Source of the DNA: Candidatus Poribacteria bacterium
GTDB taxonomy: Bacteria > Poribacteria > WGA-4E > WGA-3G
Direction of reading: 5' to 3'
Length of the DNA: 64,000 nt
NCBI GenBank assembly: GCA_028821605.1
Contig: JAPPFM010000049.1
Coordinates: 1-64,000, forward strand
Within the stretch, counting starts at the first letter, position 1. The number at the start of each line of letters is the position of its first letter. The notes under the pieces were generated by a model. It searched no databases, was not told where the DNA came from, and worked only from the letters and a program-made list of their open reading frames with translations. The position numbers were made by a program, and so were the translations under genes. This document shows positions 27,558-46,918 of this stretch, piece by piece.

Positions 27558-30500
27558 TTAGTCGCTCTTGAATTCGGCGTTGAGGTGTTCGCTGTTTTGC
27601 TTGACGGCGCGGGTGGTATTTTCGGAAAAGCCGTCTGATTTGTTGGCAGTAATGGTAATTTCAATTTTCACATTTCCGCCATCTGCTTGTAGGGTTCGGG
27701 CAATCTCGTCTTGAATGATGTCAATCTCATCGCCGAAAGGCAGTTCTAACTGCAGTGCCTTGGTAACAATAACGTGCGTAGGTCCTTTTGCTTGTGGCGG
27801 TTCGACCACAACGCCGGTTGAGTCGTCTCCTGTTTGTTTCTCTGGGTCTGGTGCTGATTCGGGAGCATCAGGTTTCTTCTGTTTATTTTTTTCCTCCTTG
27901 AGTAACTTTGCCAACTCAGGGGTTATGAGGACTGCGGGGGTACCTTTATCTATTCGGGGTCCACCGATCTGTTCTTCAAAACGGAAGTTGGGGTAGTCGC
28001 CATCGTGATACGCACTGGCGTATCCGAAGCTGCCTGCTTCTATTCCGTCTCTAATGCACGTTGCTAAGACGTTCTGGTCTTTCAGTCGTGGCATGTAGAC
28101 GTTTTGCGCCATCAGTTCCCAGAGCGCGTCTATTTCAATGTGATCTTGGTAGGTATCACTACTCCAAATGTATTGCTGCAATTTTCCTGCGAAGATTTCA
28201 GGGGCTATTTTCGTGACAATTGTGTCGTCGTCAATGAATTTGTCCCTTAGGCGTTTCATAATCCTGCCATCTTCGGGTTTTGTCTCAGCGATAGAGAAAT
28301 CATAGACATTATTTCGCGGGTCCGCTTGGGAGGGTGCAAGCGCCCACCGATATGCTTTGAAGATCGTGGCTGTTACCGCATCTTCAGCGGATTCGAGATT
28401 TCCCTTTGTCTGATCCAATCTTTCACCTTCAAGGTTACTGAGTGCCCCGTGCAGGTCGTCTCCGGTCATGATGGAATTCCATGCGAGATAGTTTTTGACA
28501 AGATTTCTAAGGTCCCGGATGTCGTCTCGCCGCGCTGCGATGAAGAGAAGCGTGTTCCTGAAAGTGCGCTGTATCCCATCGTTGATATATCTGAGAATTT
28601 TGAGTGCGTTCTCGTGTGCTTTATCGTCTTCCTTTTCGCGGCTCGGTAGGGATTCTTTCGGATGAAGAATGACGTACTGAAGGGTTTCCGAATCTTTTAC
28701 GAGGCCTGGAGATGTCGGGCAGACCTGCACGCTCGGATCGCGTCCGATTGCCCTTTCCAACCGTGAAACAATCTCACTGTAAATATCTTCTTCGGTGTAC
28801 TCTGTAGCCCGATCTATAGCAACCTTGTTAAGATTTTCTTGGGTATGGAAGTAATATCTATCGTCAAGATTATAGAGAAAATAGAGGTTACCGGTCATTC
28901 TGCTAAGAGCATCGTTGTAAACTGAAACACCTTGTCCGGGTTCAACCACCCCGAGGTGAATCTGACGGGTTGTGATCCCTTTGACCGCGCGCCCGGTTGC
29001 ACTCCCAAGGAACACGGTGCGGGCTATTCGTCTCGCCCCGCTGCCCACTTCAATGAAACTTTGAGATTTCTGATCGATCTGGTCGGTGCGGGAACCGTGG
29101 CTGTCCACCTCTTTTACGACTGGATCCCAATTCCCACCGGACTTCGCAAGCAGTCTTGTGAATTCATCAGCGAGTGCGGGATCATCCAAGGTGAGGTTTG
29201 CTGGCATTATCAAGAGGGACGGGTCCTGTTCTTGGTAAAGGCGAGAAATGCAGGTTGCCATGATGCGCAGTACGCCCCGGGTACGCTGAAATCCAGGAAT
29301 TACAGCCCAGTCTTCAAAGAGTCGATCAAATACTTCTGGGTGGATTGGATAGCAGTCTTTCATGCGCTGCAAGTAGTGCTGATCACTGACATTGTCAGGG
29401 TATTCACCGCGCGAGTTCTGATACATCTTTCGGAACGCTTCGCAGGTCAGATCTCGTTCAGTCTCGTCAATTACACTACCGAACAACCGTCTGCGCACCA
29501 CCTCAAATGCATTGTCAACTTCTAAGGGAATGGAGACAGCATCAATCCGTTCAAGGATAGACTCAAGGGTGTCAAGAACAGTTATCCCACCTTCTCCACC
29601 TGCTTGCACCTGTCCCTCTGGCAACGTAGCGACAAGCGTAACATTTTGAGATCTGTTTACGGACTCTGTGAGGGTCTGAAAGAAGGTATAGATACTCTCT
29701 TGTGTGACACCTTGTACATTACGGACATAAGCGACCAGTTCATCTATTAAGATGACAGAGGGGCCGACGTATTCAAAAAGTTCGTCCAACTGCTTTCCAC
29801 CGGGCGCACTCCCTTCCCGGGCAGCTTTACCGATTATGTTATAGGCATCTTGTCCGCCGAGTTGATCCGCCATCATCCCCCAAAGTGTATTGAGCGGGTC
29901 TCCCTGTTTGGTTTCATCTGCATCGGTCGTCGAAAGATAGGTGCCGACGAGAACAGAAACATTGGCATCAAGCGGCGTGTCAGGATCCCATTCTGCTTCC
30001 TCCAGGATATCATCTATTTCTTCCCGGAGCCGCGCGGACTTACCCTCCGTTGGAAGTTCTCTTAGGATATTTATCCCAGTAACGAGATGATAGAGAGCAA
30101 TAAGACTATGCGTTTTTCCACCGCCGAAACCGGTTTTGAGTTGGATAACAGGGTCACTACTTTTGCCACCGAGCCGCTTTAAAGTATTGACTAATAATTC
30201 TCGAAGTCCAGGGGTGATATAGGTTTGATCGAAAAAGGTGTCGGTTTCACCGTATTCTGGAGTCTTCGCTCTTCCCTCAAAAACCTCTTGGAGGTCCGCG
30301 GCGAATTCTGACTTCCGGAAAGTGCCTTCAATAACGTCGGTGTTGGGACGTATGACCTCGCGCCACGGAGTGAGGTCCGTTACCTTTCTGCGTGGTAGTA
30401 TCGGTTTTACCTTTGCAGTTGGTGCTGCATTGGCTAACAACTTGTCGCGGATGGCTTCGACTTTTTGTTTTTGTTCAGGGACATTGATTTGTCCCAGTAT

Positions 30501-30860
30501 ATCGGCAATTTCGTGAAGCCGAGCCAAGGCGTACCCTGAAGTGAGGTCTTCTGTTTCGGTGTGAAAAGTGTTATTTCTCGCCTCAGTTATTATGCCGACA
30601 GCACTGCGAACATCCCGATCTGGATCGAAGCGTTGTTTAAAGGCATCGTGCCAGTACTTTCTGAAGATATGTGGGAAGTCACCAAAGTCTATATCCGCTT
30701 CATTTTGAAATTGATCTTCTGGTGATAAGCCTTGCACCGTTTTTAGGTTTCTAAGAATAAACGGGCGCATGGCATCGCAATAGATGTTGAGTGCTTGGTA
30801 AAGTGCGTCTTGGTTTGGGCGTTTGGGCGAATTCACGTGCTTGAAGTTCCTTTTCACCAA
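27558..30860 (-). CDS. DUF499/COG1483 AAA+ ATPase with N-terminal HEPN-like domain
   Basis: 1100 residues. The N-terminal 130 residues look like a Swt1-type HEPN domain, with the RNase motif R-x4-H in EARNNTFH (R95, H100). The ATPase core has Walker A TGFGGGKTHS (244-253) and Walker B VILIDELVAYV, with SVNRSQNVTLVATLPEG after it. A proline-rich linker near residue 1000 leads to a small C-terminal beta domain. The start is TTG at 30860 or GTG one codon later. It heads the operon with a DUF1156 methyltransferase. This pairing is known from defence islands; action on foreign DNA or RNA is inferred. Confidence 0.87.
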   Translation of the reverse strand: MVKRNFKHVNSPKRPNQDALYQALNIYCDAMRPFILRNLKTVQGLSPEDQFQNEADIDFGDFPHIFRKYWHDAFKQRFDPDRDVRSAVGIITEARNNTFHTETEDLTSGYALARLHEIADILGQINVPEQKQKVEAIRDKLLANAAPTAKVKPILPRRKVTDLTPWREVIRPNTDVIEGTFRKSEFAADLQEVFEGRAKTPEYGETDTFFDQTYITPGLRELLVNTLKRLGGKSSDPVIQLKTGFGGGKTHSLIALYHLVTGINILRELPTEGKSARLREEIDDILEEAEWDPDTPLDANVSVLVGTYLSTTDADETKQGDPLNTLWGMMADQLGGQDAYNIIGKAAREGSAPGGKQLDELFEYVGPSVILIDELVAYVRNVQGVTQESIYTFFQTLTESVNRSQNVTLVATLPEGQVQAGGEGGITVLDTLESILERIDAVSIPLEVDNAFEVVRRRLFGSVIDETERDLTCEAFRKMYQNSRGEYPDNVSDQHYLQRMKDCYPIHPEVFDRLFEDWAVIPGFQRTRGVLRIMATCISRLYQEQDPSLLIMPANLTLDDPALADEFTRLLAKSGGNWDPVVKEVDSHGSRTDQIDQKSQSFIEVGSGARRIARTVFLGSATGRAVKGITTRQIHLGVVEPGQGVSVYNDALSRMTGNLYFLYNLDDRYYFHTQENLNKVAIDRATEYTEEDIYSEIVSRLERAIGRDPSVQVCPTSPGLVKDSETLQYVILHPKESLPSREKEDDKAHENALKILRYINDGIQRTFRNTLLFIAARRDDIRDLRNLVKNYLAWNSIMTGDDLHGALSNLEGERLDQTKGNLESAEDAVTATIFKAYRWALAPSQADPRNNVYDFSIAETKPEDGRIMKRLRDKFIDDDTIVTKIAPEIFAGKLQQYIWSSDTYQDHIEIDALWELMAQNVYMPRLKDQNVLATCIRDGIEAGSFGYASAYHDGDYPNFRFEEQIGGPRIDKGTPAVLITPELAKLLKEEKNKQKKPDAPESAPDPEKQTGDDSTGVVVEPPQAKGPTHVIVTKALQLELPFGDEIDIIQDEIARTLQADGGNVKIEITITANKSDGFSENTTRAVKQNSEHLNAEFKSD

Positions 30861-31323
30861 TTTTCTGATTTGGAAGTATAACAGGTTTTCAGTTTTAAGT
30901 CAAACGTGATAATTAATTCATCCAGGGCTATTTATGGTAGACTTTAGAATTACTTTGACATTGTGATTAGCACATTTGTGGGCACCCACAAGGGGTGCCC
31001 CTACAAGATATAAACTGAAAAAAAATTACACTGGTGGAAATTTCGCGATTTTTTCCCGATGCTGCACCTTTTCAGCCTTAAAATTCGTCTTTAATAATAG
31101 AGGGTATAAAGTGTATCGCATTGCTTAATTTTACAAGACTTGATATTAGATTCAGTCTTTTGTGTGGTAAAGTCCACAACTAACTGTACACTGGAGAGGT
31201 GGCGAGGTTACCGGTTTCCTTCTCCAGTAACGGGCGGGGATGCCCCTGCGCCTATAGAATTACCGACATATTTATTGAAACTTGATATCTGGTTGGTTGA
31301 ATATAAGGAGGTTAAACTCAAAA
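30861..31323. other. 463 bp spacer at operon divergence, with repeats
   Basis: Holds the start regions of two divergent operons. It contains the REP-like hairpin GGGCACCC-ACAA-GGGGTGCCC with CTAC after it (30981-31005), a G/C hairpin near 31232-31246 (GGGCGGGGATGCCCC) and the first copy of a 23-base direct repeat at 31259-31281. AAGGAGG sits 12 bases before the ATG at 31324. No gene is supported here. Confidence 0.6.
31259..31281 (+). repeat. 23-base direct repeat, copy 1, upstream of secreted protein
   Basis: ATTACCGACATATTT plus ATTGAAAC, identical to 32086-32108. Both copies precede genes of the surface-protein island, 42 and 144 bases before their starts. Possible shared control element or repeat remnant. 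Confidence 0.6.
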
Positions 31324-32016
31324 ATGAAAAGCAGATATGTACTTTTGGCAGTGTGCGCTATCGGATTCCTTCTTACGGCACAATTTGCCACTGCCGTAGA
31401 TAAAATCGAAGGTCCTTGGTATTGGATGATCACCGAAAGTCCCGCCGGTGGAGGTGGTGCTGCCGTAACGGATGTTGACGGCATCAAGGACGCAACGAAG
31501 GGTAAACTGACCGAGGAAGACGTTGCCAAAGAAGGCATTACAAAGAATATCCTGAAGGTCAAGTTTGCCGAAAATTACAAATGGACCGAGGGAGAAATCA
31601 CGCCAGTCGGGGGCAACAACATCAATGACACGCTCGTAAAGATTAAGTTGGGTCCCGGTGGCGATGTCAATGACCACTGCTCCTACGCCGTAATTAACGC
31701 TGTATCAAAGGTTACGAAAAAAGGCGTTGAAGCTAAGGTCGGTAGTGATGATTCTGTCAAGGTCTGGATGAACGGCAAAGAGGTCTGGAAAAACCCTGTC
31801 AATCGCGGTGCTGGTGATTTTCAGGACACATTTGAGGTGGACTTGAAAAAAGGCGATAACGTTTTCATGGTTAAAGTCTGTGAGCGCGGTGGCGGTTGGA
31901 GCATGTTCGCCGGTATTGACGCAGATTTGGACTACAACCTGAAGTTCAAAGGACTTCCCGTTGAACCTGCTGGCAAATTAGCGACGCAGTGGGCAGCAGT
32001 TAAAAGTTCTTACTAA
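31324..32016 (+). CDS. Secreted carbohydrate-binding-like protein with C-terminal tail motif
   Basis: 230 residues from the ATG at 31324, chosen for the AAGGAGG upstream. Signal peptide: MKSRYVLLAVCAIGFLLTAQFATA. The C-terminal half has GSDDSVKVWMNGKEVWKNPVNRG, VDLKKGDNVFMVKVCERGG and WSMFAGI. This is the pattern of a beta-sandwich sugar-binding module (GBD-like/PA14-like) found attached to glycosidases, but no catalytic domain is present. The N-terminal 90 residues are unrecognised. It ends in GKLATQWAAVKSSY, the shared tail with A after the tryptophan. It is the first gene of the island that leads to the sigma-factor operon. Confidence 0.75.
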   Translation: MKSRYVLLAVCAIGFLLTAQFATAVDKIEGPWYWMITESPAGGGGAAVTDVDGIKDATKGKLTEEDVAKEGITKNILKVKFAENYKWTEGEITPVGGNNINDTLVKIKLGPGGDVNDHCSYAVINAVSKVTKKGVEAKVGSDDSVKVWMNGKEVWKNPVNRGAGDFQDTFEVDLKKGDNVFMVKVCERGGGWSMFAGIDADLDYNLKFKGLPVEPAGKLATQWAAVKSSY

Positions 32017-32022
32017 GTTGGT

Positions 32023-32082
32023 GTTTTAACCGGTATTACCGTTCCGGTATTTGTGACTCGGAATTGTTTTATCGGTTAAAAC
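32023..32082. repeat. Inverted repeat (10 bp arms)
   Basis: GTTTTAACCG (32023-32032) and CGGTTAAAAC (32073-32082) are perfect inverted arms around 40 bases that contain CCGGTATTACCGTTCCGGTA. They follow the stop of the gene at 31324 and may end its transcript, though no T-run follows. Confidence 0.5.
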
Positions 32083-32085
32083 CGC

Positions 32086-32108
32086 ATTACCGACATATTT
32101 ATTGAAAC
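32086..32108 (+). repeat. 23-base direct repeat, copy 2
   Basis: Identical to 31259-31281 over ATTACCGACATATTT plus ATTGAAAC. It lies 144 bases before the thioredoxin-fold gene. Confidence 0.6.
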
Positions 32109-32252
32109 GGCATGAAGCCGCGCTTACCATGGTTAGAGGCTAACGAAAAAATGGTAGATTTTCTTGATGATGTGCTGTACTATCTCTTAAACTGAGGGGA
32201 AATGTCCAATATAACTGTTTGACGAACATTAAAAAAAGAAGAGGACAATCAA

Positions 32253-33596
32253 ATGAAAGTGATCTTGGCATTAGGAATCGTGTTGGGGCTGCTAATAACA
32301 TCTGCGAATTTAGAAGTGGCAGCACAAGGAGAAGCCCAAGCTCTCAATGTAGAGCGGTATGAGAAAAACATTGAGATTTGCAGACAAAATTTGATCGCAA
32401 TAGGCAAAGCGATTGATGCCTATCAGAAAGAACATGACGATTTTCCCGTCTGGCTTTCAGATTTACATCCGAAACACTTGGCAGATGGAAATCCGCTCAT
32501 TTGTCCTGCAGATAAAAAGAACGGCAAACCGATTTTTACGCCGAACACGGATCCAGAAATGCCCGTGAGTTATAGTTATGAGTTTAACCCAAGGTATATT
32601 GTCAACCGCGACCGCACCGGTCGCCTCCAACTTAGAGCGTCGAAAACTGAACAACGCAAATTGTATGGTGATGCCATGCCGCTCGTCCGGTGTCGACATC
32701 ATGCAAATAAAGAACTTGTGGTTCTAAACTTGAGTTTTTCCTCAAGAATTTACTGGTCATCCAATACTTGGGAAAACAGACCGGAAGAGATATACGAAAG
32801 CCTTGAAGAAACCATTGCCACCTTGGCTGCTGGAATTCAGGAGCACCCGGACAACGAACATCTTTCTTCTGTATATTCGGCACTTGTGCGTCTCTACATG
32901 AAAGTCGAACGAGCGGAAGATGCCGAGAATCTCATCAACCGTTATAAAAAAACGCTGAAACCTGACAACCTTCGAGATCATTTTGCCCTTGGCACTATGC
33001 TGGAGGCAATGAATCGGGATGAAGAGCTGCTGCAGCTTTTTGCGAAACTTGAGGAGCAGTTCCCGGAAAACCGTAGTGTTTTCAGCAGGCTTTCCAGGAT
33101 TCATGAAAGATTAGGCAACGCCGAACTGGCAAATCAATACCACCTAAAAGCTAATCCTATACTGGCGTTAATTGGTAACACTGTGCCTGATTTTTCCACC
33201 ACAGACCTTGATGGCAATCCGATTTCGCTTGCGCAATACCGTGGTAAAGTGGTCCTCCTCGATTTTTGGGCAGTCTGGTGCGGTCCGTGTGTTGCAGAAA
33301 TGCCGAATGTCAAGAAAGTCTATGACACCTATAAAGACGAAGGATTTGACGTTATTGGTATTAGTCTTGATACTGATGAAGGTAGGCTGCGGGATTACCT
33401 CAAAGAGAATGAGATCCCTTGGCGGCAGGTGTTTAGTGAGAAAGGCGGGGATAGTCCCATCGTACGACAGTACCACATTAGCTCGATCCCGGCACCGTGG
33501 CTTATTGACAGAGATGGCACGTTAATTACCCATCGAGCGAGAGGGGATGCGTTAGAACGTCTGGTAGCAGAGGCGCTGAAGGATAAATCGGACTAA
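32253..33596 (+). CDS. Exported TPR and thioredoxin-fold (TlpA/ResA-like) protein
   Basis: 447 residues. Signal peptide MKVILALGIVLGLLITSANLEVAAQ. Residues about 35-150 resemble the pseudopilin-like/DUF1559-type module (CRQNLIAIGKAIDAYQKEHDDFP, then CPADKKNGKP). TPR-like helices follow (EDAENLINRYKKTLKP, RLSRIHERLGNAELANQYHLKA). The C-terminal 140 residues are a thioredoxin fold with the redox motif WCGPC in DFWAVWCGPCVAEMPNVKKVY and the cis-proline SSIPAPWLIDRDG. It probably reduces or oxidises periplasmic disulfides. It precedes the sigma-propeller gene by 82 bp, so the two may be co-transcribed. It lacks the shared C-terminal tail. Confidence 0.85.
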   Translation: MKVILALGIVLGLLITSANLEVAAQGEAQALNVERYEKNIEICRQNLIAIGKAIDAYQKEHDDFPVWLSDLHPKHLADGNPLICPADKKNGKPIFTPNTDPEMPVSYSYEFNPRYIVNRDRTGRLQLRASKTEQRKLYGDAMPLVRCRHHANKELVVLNLSFSSRIYWSSNTWENRPEEIYESLEETIATLAAGIQEHPDNEHLSSVYSALVRLYMKVERAEDAENLINRYKKTLKPDNLRDHFALGTMLEAMNRDEELLQLFAKLEEQFPENRSVFSRLSRIHERLGNAELANQYHLKANPILALIGNTVPDFSTTDLDGNPISLAQYRGKVVLLDFWAVWCGPCVAEMPNVKKVYDTYKDEGFDVIGISLDTDEGRLRDYLKENEIPWRQVFSEKGGDSPIVRQYHISSIPAPWLIDRDGTLITHRARGDALERLVAEALKDKSD

Positions 33597-33678
33597 TTAT
33601 CAGATGAAAAGAAGTCCACTATAGGTTTTACCGTCGTAAATAGAACGCAACGCCATCTTTTCATCAGGAGGGAATCTC

Positions 33679-36639
33679 GTGGAGAGAGAAGAAGATGTTC
33701 AACTGATTCAGAGAACCTTATCGGGAGACGATACGGCATTTGGTATCTTACTCCAAAGACACCAGAAAAGCGTGCACGCGCTCGTATGGCGAAAGATCGG
33801 GGATTTTCACACTGCTGAAGATATTACCCAAGATACCTTCCTTCAAGCATATAAAAAACTCTCAACGCTCAAGAATCACAATCAGTTTGCTGGATGGCTG
33901 TATGTCATCGCAGATCGGCTTTGCATTGATTGGAGTCGGAAGAGAAGGCTCATAACGCAATCGCTGGAGGACACTCCTGTGGAAGAAATCGAAAGAACTT
34001 CCTATACACATCACGTATCAGAAGCGCGAGAAACAGAGTGCACGGAGCATCGCCGTGAACTCGTCAAAAAACTACTCGCAAAACTGCCAGAGAGTGAACG
34101 CACGGTGGTTACCCTCTACTATCTCGGTGAAATGACGACCAGAGAGATTGGGAAATTTTTAGGGGTGTCGGTGGATACAATTAAAAGTCGGCTTCGTCGC
34201 GGACGAAAGCGTTTGCAAGAGGATGAGGAACTGATGATCCAGGAAGTTTTTGGGGGCGTGCAAATACCGGCGAGTTTAGGCGAAAACGTCATGCGACAAG
34301 TCGCTGATATGGTCCCTACACCGTCTCCTGCTGCTAAACCGTTTCTCCCATGGATGGCTTTAGGTACAGTTGCGGTTTTGATCGCTTTACTCCTCGGTGC
34401 GAGCGACCGATACCTTACCCGTTTCCAGAAACCGTATAGTTTTGAGGCACAATCTGAACCGACGATTGAAATCGTTGACGCACCTATCATCCTTGATATA
34501 GCAACGAAACCGGCTGTGCAAAATCGGGTCGGACGGGATACCAGTCCCGGCAAAACCAGCCGTGCTGGCACCCAAGTTTCTAATGTAACCTCAACATCTG
34601 TTCCATCGGAGAATGCCACCAAGTTTTCTACAGCACAGTGGATGCACGGAAACGGACCGCCAGCGGGTCCTGTCCGCAATATCTTCGCTGCGTCTGACGG
34701 GACCGTCTATGCTGTTATACAAACGGGGATATACAGGTTAACGGCAGATGCAACCGCGTGGATACGCGTTAACGCGAGTGTCCCAATTGTCGAATCTTGG
34801 ATGCCAATCGGCGAATCTTGGATGCCAATGGCGGAGTATAGTGGTAGGCTTTATATTATTTCTACTGACGAGATATTTGCTTCGGATAACAGGGGTGAGA
34901 TATGGAAGACACTGGGTCCCCGACCCAAGGGAAATGCCGTTGGATTCGTCATCACAGATGCCGAAGAAGCGTCCAGTTCACAAGTGCCTATTACGATGTA
35001 TCTTGCACTTAGAGATAAAGGGATTTTCCGGTCCACAGATGGTGGCGCGCAATGGACTCCTCTTAACGACGGGTTGACAGGCGAAAACATTTCCGCAGTG
35101 GCTGCTGTTGGACTTCTGTCAAAGGGGGCAGTGTTTGCTGCTACAGAGAACGGTCTCTACCGTCTCGATTCAGACATCTGGGAAAAATTGCCATTGGATA
35201 CATCAGGAGCCGTCTGTTCCTTGGCAGTTTCAGGGAATAATCTCTATGCTGGAATAGCGCACGAGTTTTTGGTGAGATTAACGCGAAGTGAAATAAAAGA
35301 GATAATGTGGAATAATAGGTCAGATTTTGTCAAAATTTTCCATTCAGCTGACTTGGGCGCGTCGTGGACTGAGATATGGCGTGAAAATCAAGATCTTCCC
35401 ACCGGAGTACTGGCGGGTATAACGGTTTTAGCAGCTGGTAAGACGCTCGTGGCATTGAGTCTCACGCAATCTCGTTCAACAGATGGTGGACAAACTTGGA
35501 CAAAACTTACAAAACTTAGAGATGACTGGAATTTTTTGAACAATATCCGCCTTCCAGCTGTGATAGTAAACGAGAAAACGTGTTACAAAGCCAACCTATA
35601 CGGCATTCATCGCACGACTGACGGTGGTGAGTCATGGCACCTATTTATGAACGGGATGATGGGAACTGTTATAGTTGATCTCGTCGCGTTTGACAATAGA
35701 TTATACGCCCATAATGGCTATGAAGTTTATCAATCAACGGATGCGGGCGTGTCATGGAAAATAGTTCCGGTTGATAGACAAAGAGCTGGATTGAGGTCCT
35801 CCCCTACCAGCGTGATCGCTGATTTAAAACTGATGGTTGTTGGCAACATTCTTTATTCTCTTTACAGTGGCGGACCTACAGGAGACAGTGTAAGAATTTT
35901 CCGTTTATCTACCGATGGTGATAGGCTCATTCCCATTCAAGGTATCCCACTTTTTGATCGCAAAAAACTTGCTTTTGAAAAATATGAGTCAAAAGAGCGA
36001 GACCATCGTCTCGTATCTCGTATGAAAACTGAGACTGCTGCGGCGAGTCGTGATGTGTTCTATATAGAATACATAGGGGAACTTTTCAAATGGAAACTTG
36101 GTGATCCAGAGTGGACAAGCACTGGATTAATAGAGGATAGTCCTCTATATATTGACACATCCGTCCAGGTATTCACATTAGCTGTTTCAGGAGAAACCGT
36201 CTACGCTGGCAAATGGGATGGTAAACTATTTCAATCGCTTGATGAAGGGGAGAGTTGGAGAGATGTCACACCAACCCTACCGCTCCGCTTCACTCACTTC
36301 AAAGATATAGTCTTTGCAGGATCATCGGTTTACGTGGCAACGGACACTGGTGTGGTGGCTTCGCAAACTGGGGAAAACTGGCGCGTGCTTACGGATGGAA
36401 TAGGGACACGCATCGTCATAGACAAATTTGCTGTGGATGGCACAACAGTTTATGGTGCTGGCGCTGCTGGAAGTTATCGTTTGAATACGCAGTGGGAACA
36501 GATTTCTTCAGAAGTGCCAAATACGATCAGTGATCTCGTCATCGCTAACGATAAACTTTATAGTGCTAACGATCTGCTCAGTGGTACTAAAGGGAAGGGA
36601 CTGTTTTACATTTCGCTTGAAGACAATGAAGAGAAATAG
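33679..36639 (+). CDS. Transmembrane ECF sigma factor fused to Asp-box beta-propeller
   Basis: 986 residues with a GTG start preceded by AGGAGGG. Residues 7-90 are sigma-70 region 2 (AEDITQDTFLQAYKKL, then FAGWLYVIADRLCIDW); 126-180 are region 4 with helix-turn-helix (LPESERTVVTLYYLGEMTTREIGKFLGVSVDTIKSRLRRGRKRL). A single transmembrane helix, about 223-241 (LPWMALGTVAVLIALLLGA), follows. The rest is extracytoplasmic: a Ser/Thr-rich linker and a beta-propeller with at least seven Asp boxes (STDGGAQW, SADLGASW, STDGGQTW, TTDGGESW, STDAGVSW, SLDEGESW). No anti-sigma gene lies next to it. A membrane-tethered sigma that senses an outside signal is inferred. The next gene, a tail-bearing LamG protein, starts 19 bp later. 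Confidence 0.87.
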   Translation: MEREEDVQLIQRTLSGDDTAFGILLQRHQKSVHALVWRKIGDFHTAEDITQDTFLQAYKKLSTLKNHNQFAGWLYVIADRLCIDWSRKRRLITQSLEDTPVEEIERTSYTHHVSEARETECTEHRRELVKKLLAKLPESERTVVTLYYLGEMTTREIGKFLGVSVDTIKSRLRRGRKRLQEDEELMIQEVFGGVQIPASLGENVMRQVADMVPTPSPAAKPFLPWMALGTVAVLIALLLGASDRYLTRFQKPYSFEAQSEPTIEIVDAPIILDIATKPAVQNRVGRDTSPGKTSRAGTQVSNVTSTSVPSENATKFSTAQWMHGNGPPAGPVRNIFAASDGTVYAVIQTGIYRLTADATAWIRVNASVPIVESWMPIGESWMPMAEYSGRLYIISTDEIFASDNRGEIWKTLGPRPKGNAVGFVITDAEEASSSQVPITMYLALRDKGIFRSTDGGAQWTPLNDGLTGENISAVAAVGLLSKGAVFAATENGLYRLDSDIWEKLPLDTSGAVCSLAVSGNNLYAGIAHEFLVRLTRSEIKEIMWNNRSDFVKIFHSADLGASWTEIWRENQDLPTGVLAGITVLAAGKTLVALSLTQSRSTDGGQTWTKLTKLRDDWNFLNNIRLPAVIVNEKTCYKANLYGIHRTTDGGESWHLFMNGMMGTVIVDLVAFDNRLYAHNGYEVYQSTDAGVSWKIVPVDRQRAGLRSSPTSVIADLKLMVVGNILYSLYSGGPTGDSVRIFRLSTDGDRLIPIQGIPLFDRKKLAFEKYESKERDHRLVSRMKTETAAASRDVFYIEYIGELFKWKLGDPEWTSTGLIEDSPLYIDTSVQVFTLAVSGETVYAGKWDGKLFQSLDEGESWRDVTPTLPLRFTHFKDIVFAGSSVYVATDTGVVASQTGENWRVLTDGIGTRIVIDKFAVDGTTVYGAGAAGSYRLNTQWEQISSEVPNTISDLVIANDKLYSANDLLSGTKGKGLFYISLEDNEEK

Positions 36640-36658
36640 ATCAAAAGGAGCAATTACG

Positions 36659-37516
36659 ATGAAAAGCGGAATTCACTTCATTATATTTATGGTAATAATC
36701 GGTACATTCTCACTAAATGTAGCGACTGCATCAGTTGTAACGGATGGACTTGTCAACTATTGGACCTTTGATAAAGAACACGTTATTAATGAAACAGTAA
36801 AAGATGTTTGGGGTGACAACAACGGTGCAATCAGCGGAAATCCTAAAGTTGTTCCTGGACACGTAGGAGAGGCACTTAAGTTTGATGGTGATAGTGATTT
36901 TGTAAATTTAACCACACTTGGAGATTTTGGCAAACAAATGGGCGCATTTACGTTTGAAGCATGGATTAAAACCAGTAACGAGACTGATTGGATGACCCTC
37001 ATCAATACCCATGGCGGGGAATGTCCGTATTGGGGAATTCAACTCAATGGAATGAAAGGTAGAAATGGATTTCTGCCTGGAACGGGCAGGATATTTTTTA
37101 CCAATAGTTTATTAAACCGAAAAAGAGGATGTCAGACCTTTTTTGTAGGTAGTGTGAGACTCAATATCTATGATAGGGAATGGCATCACATTGTTTATGT
37201 TAATGAACATATGGCAGAAGAGGGAAAACGTAAAGAATTTATCTATGTAGACACTTTTCCCCATGGTGTGAGTGTAACTTCATTTGGAAATGAATGGACA
37301 TCTTTCCCATTTACAGAACCTGTCCATCTCGGTGCAACGAATTTTCGTGGAAAATCAGAAGGGCACTTCAAGGGTATGATCGATGAAGTCCGATTCTATG
37401 ATCGTCCTCTCACAGTAGAAGAAGTTATCCAGAACTTTGAATCCACCGAACCTTATGACATTGCGCCTAAAGGAAAATTGTCAACAGTCTGGGGGGCATT
37501 GAAGACAAAATTATAG
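36659..37516 (+). CDS. Secreted LamG-domain protein with tail, downstream of fused sigma factor
   Basis: 285 residues from the ATG at 36659 (AAAAGGAG upstream), 19 bp after the sigma-propeller stop. Signal peptide: HFIIFMVIIGTFSLNVATA. LamG domain: VNYWTFDKEHVINETVKDVWGDNNGAISG, FTFEAWIKTSNETDWMTL, REWHHIVYVNEH, and MIDEVRFYDRPLTVEEVIQNF. It ends in GKLSTVWGALKTKL. The tight spacing makes it the best candidate for a target, or ligand-associated partner, of the sigma factor. The earlier in-frame start overlaps the sigma gene and is less likely. Confidence 0.87.
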   Translation: MKSGIHFIIFMVIIGTFSLNVATASVVTDGLVNYWTFDKEHVINETVKDVWGDNNGAISGNPKVVPGHVGEALKFDGDSDFVNLTTLGDFGKQMGAFTFEAWIKTSNETDWMTLINTHGGECPYWGIQLNGMKGRNGFLPGTGRIFFTNSLLNRKRGCQTFFVGSVRLNIYDREWHHIVYVNEHMAEEGKRKEFIYVDTFPHGVSVTSFGNEWTSFPFTEPVHLGATNFRGKSEGHFKGMIDEVRFYDRPLTVEEVIQNFESTEPYDIAPKGKLSTVWGALKTKL

Positions 37517-37518
37517 TG

Positions 37519-37782
37519 TTATCCTTGCCTTAAAAGATCGGCTAAAGGGGTATACTCGCTGTTTTGAGGTAACTCCACAATGTGGACGTTTCCGCTACGC
37601 TTGAAGAGTTTGTATGCTTTTCCATCAGGGGCGGAAGTGAGGAGACAGTAGTGTTCCCCAACGATCTCAATCGCTGCGTTATTATCACAGTCGATGCCAA
37701 CGTTGGCGAGGTTTGTACCCTCGCCAACTTTTAATGTCCATTTAATTGTAAGCTTTACTATAACGTGCGAAAAATGCCCAAC
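37519..37782 (-). pseudogene. Minus-strand open stretch, possible gene remnant
   Basis: A frame open for about 87 codons on the minus strand ends with a TAA at 37519, three bases past the LamG stop. It reads, in part, KWTLKVGEGTNLANVGIDCD, then IEIVGEHYCLLTSAPDGKAY and KLFKRSGNVHIVELP. The composition looks protein-like, but no ATG opens it, so it is more likely a 3' gene fragment than a live gene. It contains the perfect hairpin GTTGGCGAGG-TTTGTAC-CCTCGCCAAC, a repeat-like element. No family recognised. Confidence 0.3.
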
Positions 37783-37801
37783 CTAAGAAAAAGGATTTCT
37801 G

Positions 37802-38707
37802 ATGTATATTAACTTTAAGTTCCTACTCAGTGTGATGTTATTGCTGAGTTTAGTTATGCCCGTGTTTTCTTTCGAGCCTTCCGGCGGGGTTTTGGTCCTG
37901 GATGGTGAGGATGACTATGCGATCCTCCCGCTTGCCGAGCACGGCTATATTTTTCCAAAAAATACCGATGAATTTACTGTTGAGGTATGGTTCTACCCGA
38001 TGTCTCGACCGGCGCCAGTACAGCAGGACATCATTCTGAGTCAGCAAGTTGTCTTCGGATTGAGCGGACATGAGGGTAGCTGTAGGGGTTGGATCGGTAA
38101 CAAGGGTGAAGTTTGTTCCTATGGCAGGGCACACCTTGAAGGCGGAGCGAGAGGTGTGAGGGGGACTAATGTCGTCATCAAGAAGGATCAATGGAACTAT
38201 CTGGCAGTCATTTTTAAGGACAGCACGTTTCATTTGGCATCCAACGATCAAATTGTTCGAGGACAGAAACGTGCCTTTATGAACGTAGTGGCGGCGGAAC
38301 TCTTTTTCGTTGAGCAGTTTAAGGATTTCTTCGTTGGCGGATATGCTGAAGATAAGGTAATAATCAATCAGTTTGGGGCACTTATAACTCGCGAGACATA
38401 CTTTCATGGTGCGATTGATACGATAAGGTTTTCAAATATCGCTCGGTATGATTTACCTGCCAAGTTAGGAATTTCGCCGTTTGATCCGCCGCATCGTTTT
38501 TTTACGGATGCGCACACGTTGGCACTCTGGGATTTTAATGAGAAGGAAGGTGCAGATCGCTTTGAAGATACGTCTGGGAATGGGAAAACGCTAATTGGCA
38601 TGAATGGTGCCGTTGTGATGAGTGGTGGAGATGTTGGTAATCTCGAAATTCGTCCGGACAATTCTTTGGCGACGACATGGGGACAAGTCAAGTCGGAATC
38701 GTTTTGA
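37802..38707 (+). CDS. Secreted LamG-like protein with tail, first gene of LamG/Kelch array
   Basis: 301 residues; AAGGA lies seven bases before the ATG. Signal peptide MYINFKFLLSVMLLLSLVMPVFSF. LamG core: GVLVLDGEDDYAILPLAEHG, EFTVEVWFYPMSRPAP, QWNYLAVIFKDSTFHLASND, then AIDTIRFSNIARYDLP and HTLALWDFNEKEGADRFEDTSGNGKTL. It resembles the later array members (DGVDDHAILDF, IDEVRISK, VALWHFDE) but is the most divergent. It ends in NSLATTWGQVKSESF, with V in place of L after the tryptophan. The Kelch gene follows after 76 bp. Confidence 0.85.
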   Translation: MYINFKFLLSVMLLLSLVMPVFSFEPSGGVLVLDGEDDYAILPLAEHGYIFPKNTDEFTVEVWFYPMSRPAPVQQDIILSQQVVFGLSGHEGSCRGWIGNKGEVCSYGRAHLEGGARGVRGTNVVIKKDQWNYLAVIFKDSTFHLASNDQIVRGQKRAFMNVVAAELFFVEQFKDFFVGGYAEDKVIINQFGALITRETYFHGAIDTIRFSNIARYDLPAKLGISPFDPPHRFFTDAHTLALWDFNEKEGADRFEDTSGNGKTLIGMNGAVVMSGGDVGNLEIRPDNSLATTWGQVKSESF

Positions 38708-38783
38708 ATTTGAGATTCAAGGATTCTCTTTCTGAACGCTTTTATGTTGAATATCCATTCGATAAACACCTAAGGAGAACGCT

Positions 38784-39860
38784 ATGCTCGTAAAATACAG
38801 GTATTTGCAATGGTTTTTTATCGTCTTATTTGTTGTTGCTTCTAACAGTTTTGCTGGCGGTTGGGAACAGGTAACCGAACTCCCAATATGGAGATATGGT
38901 AATACTGCCGCTGCTGTCTACGGTAAGATTTATATTATTGGGGGTTACGACCTCCATAAAAATTTAGGTGGGCGCGCTCCCGCACTTTCAATAGTAGATG
39001 TCTATGACACACAGACGAATACATGGCACAAAGTCGCAAACATGCCGACACCGCGGGTTGCGCCGCAAACTGCGGTTTTTTCCAATGAAATCTACGTGTT
39101 TGGAGGCTATGACCGAAAAGGTCGCCGCGGTGCGAGGAGAAACAAAAAAACCGTTGAGATGTATGACACGCAAACCGACACATGGATCAAGAAACGAGAT
39201 ATGCCAAGTCTCCGTATGGACTTTACCACCGCAGTCGTTGATGGAAAGATATATGTCATTGGTGGGAGGGTTGAGCACCAACCTTTCAAACCTATGCCGA
39301 CAAATCTGGTTGAAGTCTACGATCCATTGATTAATAAATGGGAGAAGCGGGCAGATATGCCGACCGCACGAGCGGGAGCCGATGCTGTCGTTGTAGACGG
39401 CAAAGTTTATGTTCTCGGCGGTCAAAATACATGGGTAGCACCGGGGCTTGCGGAACGTTTTATTACACGTATTGAAGAATATAATCCGAAAACCAACAAG
39501 TGGCAACAATTCCCTGACATGCCCATGTTCAAATTTTGGTTTGCCTCCGTCGTCGTTAATAATGAGATCTATACAATAGGGGGTGCTAATAATAAGCGAG
39601 AACGCATTGATGCTGTAGATGTTTATAATCCAACAGTTGACAAATGGCGTAAGATAGAGTCGCTACCGACCCCAAAAGATATATTCGCAGCTGTTGTTGT
39701 TAATGGTACAATCTATACTTTAGGTAGTTTTATAGGTGGTGTAGGTGGTGGTAAATTTTCGCCAATTGTTGAGGCGTTCGACACTGATTTTCGTGCGGTC
39801 ACAGCGAAGGGCAAACTCTCCACAAATTGGGGTGAACTCAAAGCAGAAAACCAGAAATAA
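38784..39860 (+). CDS. Secreted Kelch-repeat beta-propeller protein with tail (array copy 1)
   Basis: 358 residues. Signal peptide MLVKYRYLQWFFIVLFVVASNSFA, preceded by AAGGAGAA. Six Kelch repeats follow, each with the pattern of double glycine, then Y and W: YIIGGYD, DVYDTQTNTWHKVANMPTPR, YVFGGYDRKG, MYDTQTDTWIKKRDMPSLR, VYDPLINKWEKRADMPTAR, YNPKTNKWQQFPDMP and VYNPTVDKWRKIESLPTPK. This makes one beta-propeller, probably for ligand or protein binding outside the cell. It ends in GKLSTNWGELKAENQK. It alternates with LamG genes in the array. Confidence 0.92.
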   Translation: MLVKYRYLQWFFIVLFVVASNSFAGGWEQVTELPIWRYGNTAAAVYGKIYIIGGYDLHKNLGGRAPALSIVDVYDTQTNTWHKVANMPTPRVAPQTAVFSNEIYVFGGYDRKGRRGARRNKKTVEMYDTQTDTWIKKRDMPSLRMDFTTAVVDGKIYVIGGRVEHQPFKPMPTNLVEVYDPLINKWEKRADMPTARAGADAVVVDGKVYVLGGQNTWVAPGLAERFITRIEEYNPKTNKWQQFPDMPMFKFWFASVVVNNEIYTIGGANNKRERIDAVDVYNPTVDKWRKIESLPTPKDIFAAVVVNGTIYTLGSFIGGVGGGKFSPIVEAFDTDFRAVTAKGKLSTNWGELKAENQK

Positions 39861-39862
39861 CC

Positions 39863-39976
39863 TCACGACTTATGCAAATTGAAGAAAGAACGTGTATATT
39901 TTCCTTAAAAATCGGTATCTCGTTGCATTTAACCCCCTAAATCCCCCTTATCAGGGGGACTTTAAGAGGCAATGCG
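39863..39976. mobile_element. Dispersed non-coding element, copy 1, with empty-site evidence
   Basis: 114 bases beginning ACGACTTATGCAAATTG and ending with CCCCCTTATCAGGGGGACTTTAAGAGGCAATGCG in two blocks. At the equivalent junction after the Kelch gene at 42928, ATAACC joins TTTAAAATCAAGG directly, so the element sits exactly inside an otherwise conserved junction. A related copy is at 19208-19311. No coding capacity; a non-autonomous element or a loss at the other site are both possible. Confidence 0.55.
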
Positions 39977-40001
39977 TTTAAAATCAAGGAAACCTATGAA
40001 G

Positions 40002-40910
40002 ATGAAAACTCTACGAAATCAGTCAATTTTTGTGTGCCTTTTTCTGCTGGTTTTCATTCCGCTGGGTGCTGAATCGCTTCCGCCGCCATCACCTGCGGGT
40101 GGTAACTATTTAGTGCTTGATGGGGTGGACGATCACGCCATTTTGGACTTTGAAACGTTCGGTCTCCTCATACCAAAAGACGCAGATGAATTCACCTTTG
40201 AAGCGTGGGTATATCCAACCACGCTGCCTAACAGGGATGTACACACACTGGTTCTCAGCCAACAGGTGATGATGGATGTCACGGGCCATGATCACCAGGG
40301 ATTTGGGGGTGTAAAGGCGGTTCTAAATCTGTCGAAGGGAGATTTCATGATACAAGGTTTAGCGCACCTTGCTCGTGACGTAGGGCACACTATAATGTCG
40401 CTCGCCCCGTTAAAGTTTCCCGCGAATCAATGGAATCACATTGCCTTTCAGGGAGGAAAGGGACGGAAGACGACCGTCATTGTTAATGATTTCGCGCGCA
40501 TCTCAGGGGGAGAAAAAGGAATAACTCTCGCACACGACGCAGACAAGATCACCTCATTGGGAGGGCATCCACAGGATTTTAGACTTGGAGGGTGTGACGG
40601 AAAACTTCCGTTTCACAACAAACTGCATTCTTGGGGTTATTTTGCTGGCTATATTGATGAGGTCCGCATCTCAAAGGTTATACGTTACAATGCGGTCAAA
40701 CGCGGTTTCACGCCGCAGAAAAAGTTCAAAAATGACGCAAAGACGGTTGCGTTGTGGCATTTTGATGAAGCGAGGGGAACACGGGTGTTCTCAGATACAT
40801 CAGGCAACGCCTATCATCTGGTCGGTAAAAATGGTGCGCAGACCGATGGCAAACTCTCAGTTGAAGCAGCAGGAAAACTTGCGACGATATGGGGACGACT
40901 GAAGCAATGA
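40002..40910 (+). CDS. Secreted LamG-domain protein with tail (array)
   Basis: 302 residues from the ATG at 40002, chosen because it aligns with the conserved start MK-x-LRNQS/P of the other four copies; an ATG six bases earlier is possible. Signal peptide LRNQSIFVCLFLLVFIPLGAES. The mature start is PPPSPAGGNYLVLDGVDDHA, followed by one LamG fold: EFTFEAWVYPTTLP, NQWNHIAFQGGKGRKTTVIVNDF, YIDEVRISKVIRY and VALWHFDEARGT. It ends in EAAGKLATIWGRLKQ. It is about as close to the other array copies as expected of recent duplication. Confidence 0.9.
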   Translation: MKTLRNQSIFVCLFLLVFIPLGAESLPPPSPAGGNYLVLDGVDDHAILDFETFGLLIPKDADEFTFEAWVYPTTLPNRDVHTLVLSQQVMMDVTGHDHQGFGGVKAVLNLSKGDFMIQGLAHLARDVGHTIMSLAPLKFPANQWNHIAFQGGKGRKTTVIVNDFARISGGEKGITLAHDADKITSLGGHPQDFRLGGCDGKLPFHNKLHSWGYFAGYIDEVRISKVIRYNAVKRGFTPQKKFKNDAKTVALWHFDEARGTRVFSDTSGNAYHLVGKNGAQTDGKLSVEAAGKLATIWGRLKQ

Positions 40911-40954
40911 AAAAGGAACTGATTTACGACAAAAAATCAAGGAAACCTACGAAG

Positions 40955-41806
40955 ATGAAGAATCTACGAAATCAGTCAATTTTCACTTGTCTTTTTCTGC
41001 TGGTTTTCGTTCCGCTGGGTGCTGAATCGCTTCCACCGCCATCACCCGCGGGTGGTAACTATTTAGTGCTTGATGGGGTGGACGATCACGCCATTTTGGA
41101 CTTTGAAACGTTCGGTCTTCTCATGCCAAAAGGCACAGATGAATTCACCTTTGAGGCGTGGATATATCCAACCGAGCTGCCTGACCAGAATGTACATGCA
41201 ATAATTCTCAGTCAACAGGTGCGGATACATGCCCGGGGCCTTGAGCACGCCGGAAATTTAAGCCTAATGGGCGGAGCGCAGGTTGCTCTTGGCGAAGCAC
41301 ACATTCTAATAGCGTTCGGTTGGATAAAATTCCCCCCGAATCAATGGTATCACGTCGCCTTTCAGGGAGGAAAGGGACAGGGGACCACAGTAATGGTTAA
41401 CGATGAAGTGCTCAGAATACTGCAAGAAATAACTCTCGCACCCGATATCTCGCACGCCGGGCATCCACAGGCTTTTACAATCGGCGGGTTTGGAGAGAAC
41501 ATTGAGTTTCAGGCTGGTCATTTTTGGGGTCATTTTGTGGGCTATATCGATGAGGTCCGTATCTCAAAGGTTGCGCGTTACGATACCGCCAAACGCGATT
41601 TCACGCCGCGCACAAAGTTCAAGAATGACGCAAAGACGGTTGCGTTGTGGCATTTTGATGAAGCAAAGGGAGCACGCGAGTTCTCAGATACATCAGGCAA
41701 CGCCTATCATCTAATAGGTAAAAATGGTGCACAGACCGATGGCGAATTTGCAGCAATTGAACCAGAAGGAAAACTTGCGACGATATGGGGACGACTGAAG
41801 CAATAA
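40955..41806 (+). CDS. Secreted LamG-domain protein with tail (array)
   Basis: 283 residues from the ATG at 40955. The open frame runs upstream over the previous stop, but the conserved start and AAGGAAACC just upstream favour this codon. Signal peptide LRNQSIFTCLFLLVFVPLGAES. The mature start PPPSPAGGNYLVLDGVDDHA is identical to the previous copy; the middle differs (AHILIAFGWIKFPPNQWYHVAFQGG). The closing part is YIDEVRISKVARYDTAKRDF. It ends in EPEGKLATIWGRLKQ. The gap of 44 bp to the copy before it and 45 bp to the Kelch gene suggests co-transcription. Confidence 0.9.
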   Translation: MKNLRNQSIFTCLFLLVFVPLGAESLPPPSPAGGNYLVLDGVDDHAILDFETFGLLMPKGTDEFTFEAWIYPTELPDQNVHAIILSQQVRIHARGLEHAGNLSLMGGAQVALGEAHILIAFGWIKFPPNQWYHVAFQGGKGQGTTVMVNDEVLRILQEITLAPDISHAGHPQAFTIGGFGENIEFQAGHFWGHFVGYIDEVRISKVARYDTAKRDFTPRTKFKNDAKTVALWHFDEAKGAREFSDTSGNAYHLIGKNGAQTDGEFAAIEPEGKLATIWGRLKQ

Positions 41807-41851
41807 AAGAATGGCATTTCTCTGGAATTGTTAAAAGAGAGGGAGAAAGTT

Positions 41852-42928
41852 ATGCTCGGAAAATATAGATGTTTGCAATGGGTCTTTACTTTTTTCTTTG
41901 TTGTTGCTTCCAGTAGTTTTGCGGGGGGTTGGAAAAAGGTAACTACGCTACCAACATGGAGACTTGCTGGGCCTGCCGCTGCTGTGGATGGTAAAATTTA
42001 TCTCTTCGGTGGTTTCGACCACAAGAAACATGTAGGCGGACGTGGTGCCGCACTCTCAACGGTAGATGTCTACGACACACAGACGAACACATGGCACGCA
42101 GCCGCAGAGATGCCGACCCCGCGGATTGCGCCGCGAACCGCAGTCTTTTCCAACCAAATCTATGTCTTTGGGGGTTATGACTACAAAGGTCGCTGGGGTG
42201 TAAAAAGATACCACACAACTGTCGAGGCGTATGACACACAAACCGATACATGGGTCAAGAAGCCAGATATGCCAACACTCCGTGTTCCTTTTGCCACTGC
42301 GGTTGTTGATGGAAAGATATACCTCATTGGTGGAACACGTATTGAAGTTAATAAAAACGGAGTATTTGCTGGGAAGGCTATTACGGATCTGGTTGAGGTC
42401 TACGATCCGTTGACCGATAGATGGGAAAAACGCGCAGACATGCCGACAGCACGAAGTGTGAGTGAGGCTGTCGTTGTAGATGGTAAGATTTATGTTCTCG
42501 GTGGTAAGACGCGATTCGACGGCGACCTTGCCGGACGTTTTGTCACACATATTGAAGAATATAATCCGAAAACCGACCAGTGGCATCAGCTCCCTGACAT
42601 GCCAATGTTCAAATTTGGTTTTCTAACCGTTGCCGTTGATAATGAGATTTATACATTGGGTGGTACTAATAATGAGATTAGAGACACTAACGCTGTAGAC
42701 GTTTATAATCCAACAACCGGCAAATGGCGTCAAATAGAACCTCTAACGATCCCAAATTTGATAATGGCAGCAGTTGCTAATGGTAAAATCTATACCTTAG
42801 GGGGTATTATAGGTGATTTTAAATTTTCGCCAATCGTTGAGGCGTTTGACACCGGATTTCGTGCTGTCACAGCGAAGGGCAAACTTCTGACATACTGGGG
42901 TGAACTCAAAGCAGAAAACCAGAAATAA
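41852..42928 (+). CDS. Secreted Kelch-repeat protein with tail (array copy 2)
   Basis: 358 residues from the ATG at 41852 (GAGGGAGAAAG upstream); an in-frame ATG 24 bases earlier lies before that site. Signal peptide MLGKYRCLQWVFTFFFVVASSSFA. Kelch repeats: YLFGGFDHKK, VYDTQTNTWHAAAEMPTPR, YVFGGYDYKG, AYDTQTDTWVKKPDMPTLR, VYDPLTDRWEKRADMPTAR, YNPKTDQWHQLPDMP and VYNPTTGKWRQIEPL. It ends in GKLLTYWGELKAENQK, with L in the A/S position. Closest relatives in the window are the Kelch genes at 38784 and 44743. Confidence 0.92.
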   Translation: MLGKYRCLQWVFTFFFVVASSSFAGGWKKVTTLPTWRLAGPAAAVDGKIYLFGGFDHKKHVGGRGAALSTVDVYDTQTNTWHAAAEMPTPRIAPRTAVFSNQIYVFGGYDYKGRWGVKRYHTTVEAYDTQTDTWVKKPDMPTLRVPFATAVVDGKIYLIGGTRIEVNKNGVFAGKAITDLVEVYDPLTDRWEKRADMPTARSVSEAVVVDGKIYVLGGKTRFDGDLAGRFVTHIEEYNPKTDQWHQLPDMPMFKFGFLTVAVDNEIYTLGGTNNEIRDTNAVDVYNPTTGKWRQIEPLTIPNLIMAAVANGKIYTLGGIIGDFKFSPIVEAFDTGFRAVTAKGKLLTYWGELKAENQK

Positions 42929-42955
42929 CCTTTAAAATCAAGGAGACCTACGCAG

Positions 42956-43801: not shown

Positions 43802-43845
43802 AACAGACACTGATTTACTACGAAAAATTAAGGAGACCTACGCAG

Positions 43846-44697: not shown

Positions 44698-44742
44698 AAG
44701 AATGGGATTTTTCTGGAATTGTGTTAAGAAAAGGAGAACATT

Positions 44743-45804: not shown

Positions 45805-45806
45805 CC

Positions 45807-45984
45807 CCACGACTTATGCAAGAAAAAATGCGTAAGTCCTATTATAGTAAAGCCCGTAATTATTTATACACCAGCACAAGGGCGAGGATACTAAGGGAAA
45901 TACCCAAGCAAAAACTCCCTCGCCAGCGGCAGTGGGGGTTTGTTCCCTGACGAACTGTAAACATATTTTCGGATTCTACTATAA
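45807..45984. repeat. Second insertion-like spacer in the array, with long hairpin
   Basis: Begins CCACGACTTATGCA and continues AGAAAAAATGCGTAAGTCCT: the arms GACTTATGCA and TGCGTAAGTC pair over ten bases with one G-T. It replaces the short ATAACC-TTAAAATCAAGG junction seen at 42928. Further in are TATAGTAAAGCCCGTAATTA and CCCAAGCAAAAACTCCCTCG, both resembling other spacer repeats (37740, 9115, 11550). Confidence 0.5.
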
Positions 45985-46009
45985 ATTAAAATCAAGGAGA
46001 CCGACGAAG

Positions 46010-46873: not shown

Positions 46874-46918
46874 AAAAGAAACTTCAGTCTTGTGTTTTGA
46901 GTTTCCCCCATATCGTCG
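46845..46918. terminator. Convergent inverted repeat, possible bidirectional terminator
   Basis: Outer arms CGACGATATGGGG (46845-46857) and CCCCATATCGTCG (46906-46918) are perfect, and inner arms GACTGAAG (46860-46867) and CTTCAGTC (46882-46889) are perfect too. The outer arms encode the ATIWG/TTIWG part of the two convergent proteins' tails. A transcription-ending role is inferred. Confidence 0.5.

Follow-up and report, generated by a model that had tools for sequence, protein, structure and literature searches.

An ECF sigma factor fused to a transmembrane helix and a double Asp-box propeller, and its expanded paralogue family with exchangeable C-terminal domains in Candidatus Poribacteria

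Membrane-fused and WD40-extended ECF sigma factors are already known and little understood. IutY (ECF243) is a membrane-fused ECF released by Prc/RseP, members of ECF52 carry a carbohydrate-binding domain outside the membrane, and in ECF57 two conserved cysteines have been proposed to connect sigma 2 with sigma 4 (PMC8999054). In the sigma-I/RsgI systems, RsgI has a transmembrane (TM) segment between its modules and undergoes RseP cleavage (PMC6056542, PMC12203970). Among the papers searched, we found none that describes sigma fusions in Poribacteria. The gene described here lies in a stretch of 64,000 nucleotides (contig JAPPFM010000049.1, assembly GCA_028821605.1), hereafter the window, and its product is organized as follows:

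33679..36639, plus strand: ECF sigma-TM-juxtamembrane-stalk-double Asp-box propeller fusion, 986 aa
33748..33948, plus strand: sigma-70 region 2, residues 24-90 (PF04542, Sigma70_r2, E 1.2e-13)
34057..34215, plus strand: sigma-70 region 4, residues 127-179 (PF08281, Sigma70_r4_2, E 1.4e-15)
34342..34401, plus strand: TM helix, residues 222-241 (hydropathy; helix 224-238 in the model)
34402..34542, plus strand: juxtamembrane segment, residues 242-288, with a RFQKPYSFEAQSEPT core, kept with any C-terminal domain
34543..34641, plus strand: variable stalk, residues 289-321, holding the swap point (sequence shared with Kelch alleles stops at 34622)
34642..36636, plus strand: two predicted tandem Asp-box beta-propellers, residues 322-986 (all-beta model; Foldseek match to GH74; seven Asp boxes)

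The open reading frame starts with a GTG codon directly preceded by AGGAGG. Regions 2 and 4 are present and region 3 is absent, as in ECF (group 4) sigma-70 factors; the protein also scored above the cut-off of TIGR02937 (sigma70-ECF), and the best-ranking solved relative was SigW (E 1.2e-32). A first-pass annotation, made from the letters of the window, had described sigma-70 regions 2 and 4 followed by a hydrophobic helix at residues 223-241 and then by more than 700 residues with at least seven Asp boxes, and had named the lack of such a helix as fatal to its reading. Each of these points was borne out: Pfam recovered both regions, hydropathy analysis revealed a single strong TM segment at residues 222-240 (mean KD 2.2), and 745 residues lie C-terminal to it, about 665 of which belong to the propellers. 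Strict Asp boxes ([ST]x[DN]xGxxW) start at residues 402, 452, 556, 600, 646, 686, and 853, seven in all, compared with 0.026 on average and at most 1 among 2000 shuffled sequences. Beyond residue 400 Pfam returned Asp-box/BNR and sortilin-type matches, and between the sigma part and the TM helix (residues 185-222) it returned no match.

In the AlphaFold2 model (29 sequences, mean pLDDT 70.7), the sigma helices and the TM helix are accompanied by a disordered linker (residues 190-317), and the remainder is all-beta. The top Foldseek matches of the C-terminal part were GH74 xyloglucanases (E 5.7e-23), with TM-scores of 0.3-0.4 by query and 0.40-0.55 by target; the same family was weakly matched by profile comparison. 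Identity to these enzymes is about 15%, a level at which the alignment is unreliable. Foldseek also matched the double-propeller sensors that Bacteroides hybrid two-component systems carry in the periplasm. A short helix predicted within the linker (residues 198-210), whose packing is given by neither of two models, could act as an inhibitor or be the remnant of an anti-sigma domain.

A frameshift or an assembly join of two genes, which the earlier annotation had raised against itself, is ruled out by intact orthologues in independent genomes, since many Poribacteria MAGs of independent origin, and the complete chromosome OX639992.1, encode full-length copies (970-987 aa). The fusion gene is under purifying selection, with dN/dS values of 0.06-0.15 for the sigma part and 0.29-0.43 for the propellers; all parts remain well below 1, the exception being noisy values in the 18-codon TM segment.

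Sigma factors of this type were encoded by 57 genes in the genome from which the window derives (tBLASTn, 5.99 Mb), at approximately 45-67% identity, and were clearly separate from its roughly 20 ordinary ECFs (24-36% identity). Sequence was inspected directly over 772 kb around the paralogues, i.e. 13% of the genome, and copies elsewhere were located by tBLASTn. The expectation that membrane fusions are rare thus did not hold here: in 43 of the 57 paralogues the TM module occupies the corresponding position, the other 14 have none, and at least a dozen kinds of C-terminal domain are joined to the sigma part. Asp-box propellers predominate (23 members, two of them TM-less), followed by WD40 (nine), redoxin (three), M16 (two) and an HTH domain (two), together with single cases of Kelch, Reg_prop propeller, GHL15, C-type lectin, M61 and DnaN; the C-terminal parts of the remaining 12 are unassigned. 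On the sigma tree the C-terminal class changes at least 24 times, with 'other' counted as one class. Reading frames are intact in nearly all family copies, one sigma remnant carrying a stop. The expansion of the sigma-TM module is confined to two genera of one family, the copy number per genome ranging from 8 to at least 59 in the genus of the window and from 18 to at least 28 in the sister genus g13. Two further genera of that family have 1-2 copies, other members of the order 0-3, and the remaining phylum almost none. The rare copies from other families of the order are likewise embedded, for the most part, in long open frames, so that fusion probably came before the expansion.

Several members depart from this plan. 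In G000:C59:22347-25106 and C59:17447-20254 (L029), Asp-box propellers directly follow the sigma part and the TM is missing, so that the propeller may also work in the cytoplasm. Beside a sigma-WD40 fusion, G000:C2:64263-65405 (L045) encodes a WD40 protein whose N-terminal segment resembles the family TM and which lacks the sigma part; it is perhaps a sigma-less derivative. Another member is a fusion to the DNA sliding clamp:

L041:7827-9545, i.e. G000:C55:109724-111445, minus strand: sigma-DnaN fusion with a family promoter of its own

Here the reading frame of the sigma part continues into a complete DNA polymerase III beta clamp (DnaN; TIGR00663, E 5e-63). At least 12 genomes of the genus, two of them complete chromosomes, have such an open frame (576-582 aa) alongside a normal dnaN, and an internal ATG with GGAG 5' of it means that free DnaN could also be made. 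The arrangement brings to mind late transcription in phage T4, where a sigma factor is paired with the clamp.

Comparison of 88 sequences showed where the constant part of these proteins ends. The juxtamembrane segment 242-266 is conserved like the sigma domains, whichever C-terminal domain follows: its majority frequency is 0.80, compared with 0.77 for sigma 2 and 0.81 for sigma 4, and with the less conserved TM (0.64) and stalk (residues 289-316; 0.39). Alleles of the window locus locate the boundary more closely. In six loci (L073, L077-L079, L081, L082) with gene neighbourhoods matching that of the window, a sigma-TM module 86-92% identical to the window's is followed by a Kelch domain, and nucleotide homology ends at window position 34622 every time, as it does for the shortened allele L111. 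Both the Kelch and the Asp-box allele are present in the genome jk18xAbins.24, so that one domain may have replaced the other directly or, just as possibly, the gene was duplicated and one copy later lost. Between the window and the alleles L087/L088, dS is about 1.1 for the sigma part and 0.27 for the propellers, again a sign of recombination between modules.

From the 57 upstream regions, expectation maximisation derived a 36-bp ECF-type motif, atTatGCaaCctTTT....t.tAA.tcgCGTCACTA. This common promoter (TGCAACCTTTT...CGCGTCACTA) lies directly 5' of 42 of the 57 family genes and, for a further 12, heads a co-directional gene run leading into them (54/57 in total; 3/57 have none). Among other genes of at least 150 aa, 22 of 419 have a direct match, and many of these are the heads of family-gene runs. 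At 20 bits or more, the matrix matched 74 times in the 772 kb, compared with once for the reversed matrix. Since the matrix derives from sequence upstream of the family genes themselves, independent evidence carries particular weight. A match was found within 2.6 kb upstream in 51 of 75 related loci, several of which have truncated flanks; of the 39 genomes examined from the taxonomic family f1, 38 contain a strict form of the pattern, which all 16 genomes from outside f1 lack and whose reverse has almost no matches; and 13 of the 16 strict-pattern sites in the window's genome fell inside the 13% of sequence around family genes. The strict pattern was absent from G063, a genome with 26 sigma copies. 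The promoter was also found in sister genera of the same family, and its use as the mark of a single genus was dropped. The short pattern GCAMCY-N13-19-GCGTCAY proved too loose genome-wide (26 sites compared with 9 in the reversed control), and the trained matrix and the longer pattern were used for this reason. A general sigma-70 promoter scan of the window cluster rose barely above shuffles. The association between motif and family suggests that the family sigmas recognize this shared promoter.

Within the window, the promoter heads a run of genes that includes the fusion gene:

31058..31093, plus strand: family ECF-type promoter (GATGCTGCACCTTTTCAGCCTTAAAATTCGTCTTTA), head of the 31282-32253-33679 run, 21.6 bits
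31282..32016, plus strand: exported protein of about 244 aa, first after the promoter, with an N-terminal hydrophobic signal and the C-terminal tag GKLATQWAAVK
32253..33596, plus strand: exported TPR and ResA/TlpA-like redoxin protein (AhpC-TSA E 9e-23; signal peptide)
36659..37516, plus strand: LamG-type exported protein with the tag GKLSTVWGALK (Laminin_G_3 E 6e-16; ATG, AAAAGGAG 5')
37702..37728, plus strand: terminator-like hairpin 3' of the LamG gene, GGCGAGGTTT...AACCTCGCC inverted repeat (10 pairs, 7 G-C, then T-rich; consensus match only)

The site at 31058-31093 is the only match of 16 bits or more in the window. The first-pass annotation had proposed testing for promoter use upstream of the LamG genes; this single family promoter heads the run of the sigma gene and is not repeated before each LamG gene. 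In seven related loci (L074, L077, L078, L080, L082, L084, L086) the promoter directly precedes the sigma gene, and because orthologues such as L084 have the promoter and the same leader in that position, the two genes lying between promoter and sigma gene in the window appear to have been inserted. The first of them (31282..32016) gave no confident Pfam or NCBIfam match; the second is of a domain type that forms the C-terminal part of other sigma paralogues, with a homologous stretch in the fusion C51:3792-5738. Downstream, 20 bp separate the sigma gene from the LamG gene at 36659, and the hairpin at 37702-37728 is a possible operon end. The same inverted repeat also occurs between genes upstream of G000:C48:54594 and C59:298118, and may be a dispersed repeat that perhaps serves as a terminator.

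Further features of the neighbourhood were recorded. A C-terminal tag like GKLATIWGRLK is shared by ten LamG, Kelch and other exported proteins in window 31282-46873; such tags end 12 proteins in the 772 kb and none in the reversed sequence, in L073 the Kelch-bearing sigma fusion closes with the related GKLVQTWKTIK, and the tag may be a sorting or anchoring signal. A tandem array of LamG and Kelch genes, near-identical to one another, fills window positions 38764-46993; orthologous loci differ in how many such genes they have and in how these are ordered, which suggests rapid turnover of exported proteins downstream of the sigma gene. On the other side of the cluster (27558-30860, minus strand), and adjoining it also in L077 and L081, lies a gene for a 1100-aa protein with the P-loop GGGKTHS, which looks like a large ATPase.

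The C-terminal domains are related to proteins encoded around them more often than their positions alone would give. In 16 of the 57 members a homologue of the C-terminal domain is encoded within 8 kb, compared with a mean of 2.5 and a maximum of 7 when C-terminal domains were shuffled among positions (2000 trials). Clear pairs of fusion and neighbour include M61 (68% identity, adjacent), two of M16 (60 and 72%), Reg_prop (50%), redoxin (69%), one lectin array, and a 712-aa Asp-box protein located between two sigma-Asp-box genes (56%). The Asp-box domain of the window gene itself has no homologue within 8 kb and is outside the 16, though the domain of its Kelch alleles is of the same type as the cluster's Kelch proteins. 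These neighbours also bear on topology. The propeller had been placed outside the cell in the first-pass annotation, a location to which flanking charges contribute little (2.65 compared with 2.02 K/R, so that the positive-inside rule hardly favours one topology). Of 13 stand-alone proteins that are encoded nearby and resemble TM-type C-terminal domains, 11 begin with a signal peptide, and these are therefore the main, indirect, support for a propeller outside the cytoplasm. For the TM-less M61 fusion, both neighbour homologues lack a signal peptide; the TM-less redoxin fusion is an exception.

Read together, the conserved architecture, the paralogue family, the swapping of domains, the shared promoter and the neighbour homology, all evident at the sequence level, make it probable that the gene encodes a self-regulating receptor-sigma in one polypeptide, with a sensor drawn from the products of its own cluster. 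In such a receptor, the N-terminal ECF sigma would be held at the membrane, on its cytoplasmic side, through the TM helix, while the double propeller outside would sense a ligand, a polymer or a partner protein. The conserved juxtamembrane segment would relay the signal, the most likely step being regulated proteolysis of the S2P/RseP type in that segment and the TM helix. The freed sigma would then bind RNA polymerase and fire the family promoter, including the site at 31058-31093 that heads its own operon, which would give more receptor and more of the co-encoded exported proteins. On this view the sigma-TM module forms a fixed output cassette across the family, and what is exchanged is the sensor, often for a duplicate of an exported protein of the cluster.

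Control by a nearby separate anti-sigma factor was rejected for the zf-HC2 class. A search of the genome gave seven zf-HC2 matches in six genes, all adjoining ordinary ECF genes, and none beside any of the 57 family genes; the check for an anti-sigma gene elsewhere, proposed with the first-pass annotation, has therefore been made and shows that the fusion has no zf-HC2 gene of its own. An M50 protease gene is present, which says little because every control genome also has one. Proteolytic release is plausible by analogy with IutY and RsgI and, taken on its own, we would put it slightly short of an even chance.

Alternatively, the sigma factor might never be released, and a ligand or clustering of the ectodomain might alter it at the membrane, which may couple transcription to export. 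The single TM, the long flexible linker (residues 190-317, disordered in the model) and the strong conservation of the juxtamembrane segment would all suit such a protein, and ToxR/CadC-type regulators are a precedent for working while membrane-tethered. A sigma factor has to travel with RNA polymerase, however, and the known membrane-fused ECFs are freed by proteolysis (IutY; PMC8999054), so that we regard permanent tethering as unlikely. Less likely still, and to our minds a long shot, is that the C-terminal domains are effectors, the sigma being fused to a product of its own regulon, which would couple synthesis of that product to continued activity of the operon irrespective of any outside signal. 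Enzymes and housekeeping proteins do occur among the domains (M61, M16, GHL15, redoxin, DnaN), neighbours are homologous to them, and the internal start in the DnaN fusion could yield the free protein; but propeller, lectin and Kelch domains predominate, the conserved TM and juxtamembrane segment would be superfluous, and an unchecked positive loop on 57 operons is hardly to be expected. That the family is a decaying or freely recombining repeat with no regulatory role, its fusions being by-products of duplication and recombination, is very improbable: the many paralogues, the recombinant alleles L087/L088, the truncated allele L111 and the one sigma remnant with a stop are set against intact frames in nearly all copies and in complete chromosomes, purifying selection and a promoter retained on 54/57.

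Returning to the self-regulating receptor, the larger finding is a modular sigma family that apparently regulates itself through swappable sensors often related to cluster products. The output module is constant, and the sensor has been swapped dozens of times within a genome and between alleles of one locus; the TM-less form of the sigma has even acquired cytoplasmic partners, the DNA sliding clamp among them. We tentatively suggest that the sigma-TM cassette is an evolutionary converter, by which a neighbouring product, once its duplicate is joined to the cassette, becomes the sensor of its own cluster. If so, each genome would hold dozens of one-protein sense-and-respond circuits that regulate themselves under one promoter code. 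With a constant module and a common promoter that can be used as a reporter, two questions become testable, namely how a fused ECF switches independently of an anti-sigma factor and whether sensors originate by duplication of a controlled product. The family also offers a first handle on gene regulation in the uncultured, sponge-symbiont Poribacteria, and interchangeable parts for synthetic receptors.

Among known systems, IutY and ECF48/52/53 are similar in that an ECF sigma carries a membrane-crossing C-terminal extension and no separate anti-sigma factor is involved (PMC8999054); here too a TM follows the sigma part and precedes a C-terminal domain whose outside location has indirect support. 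Their extensions contain an anti-sigma domain of the zinc finger or FecR type, whereas the present fusion protein gave no zf-HC2 match, and the family differs further in its massive expansion and in the variety of domains that take the outside position. ECF57 and the planctomycete ECF-WD40 proteins likewise combine an ECF with a big beta-propeller extension and are expanded in uncommon phyla (PMC8999054, PMC8567305); with only Cys82 conserved among the 88 sequences, the present family is, on this point, set apart from ECF57 as described. Nor does it conform to the canonical ECF with an adjoining zf-HC2 anti-sigma gene. The GH74 xyloglucanases, the best fold match to the C-terminal part, are built of two tandem Asp-box propellers, as that part appears to be, but they are enzymes that have neither sigma nor TM, and no enzymatic activity is claimed for the fusion. 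The Bacteroides hybrid two-component proteins BT4673, BT3049 and BT4663 unite a periplasmic double-propeller sensor and a transcription output in one membrane protein, the output being a histidine kinase with a DNA-binding response regulator and here a sigma factor. Finally, the sigma-I/RsgI systems of Clostridium thermocellum are also paralogous, autoregulating sigmas steered by outside modules that resemble those of the proteins under their control (PMC6056542, PMC12203970); sigma-I is not a typical ECF and its sensor sits on a separate anti-sigma, whereas in the family described here sigma and sensor form one chain.
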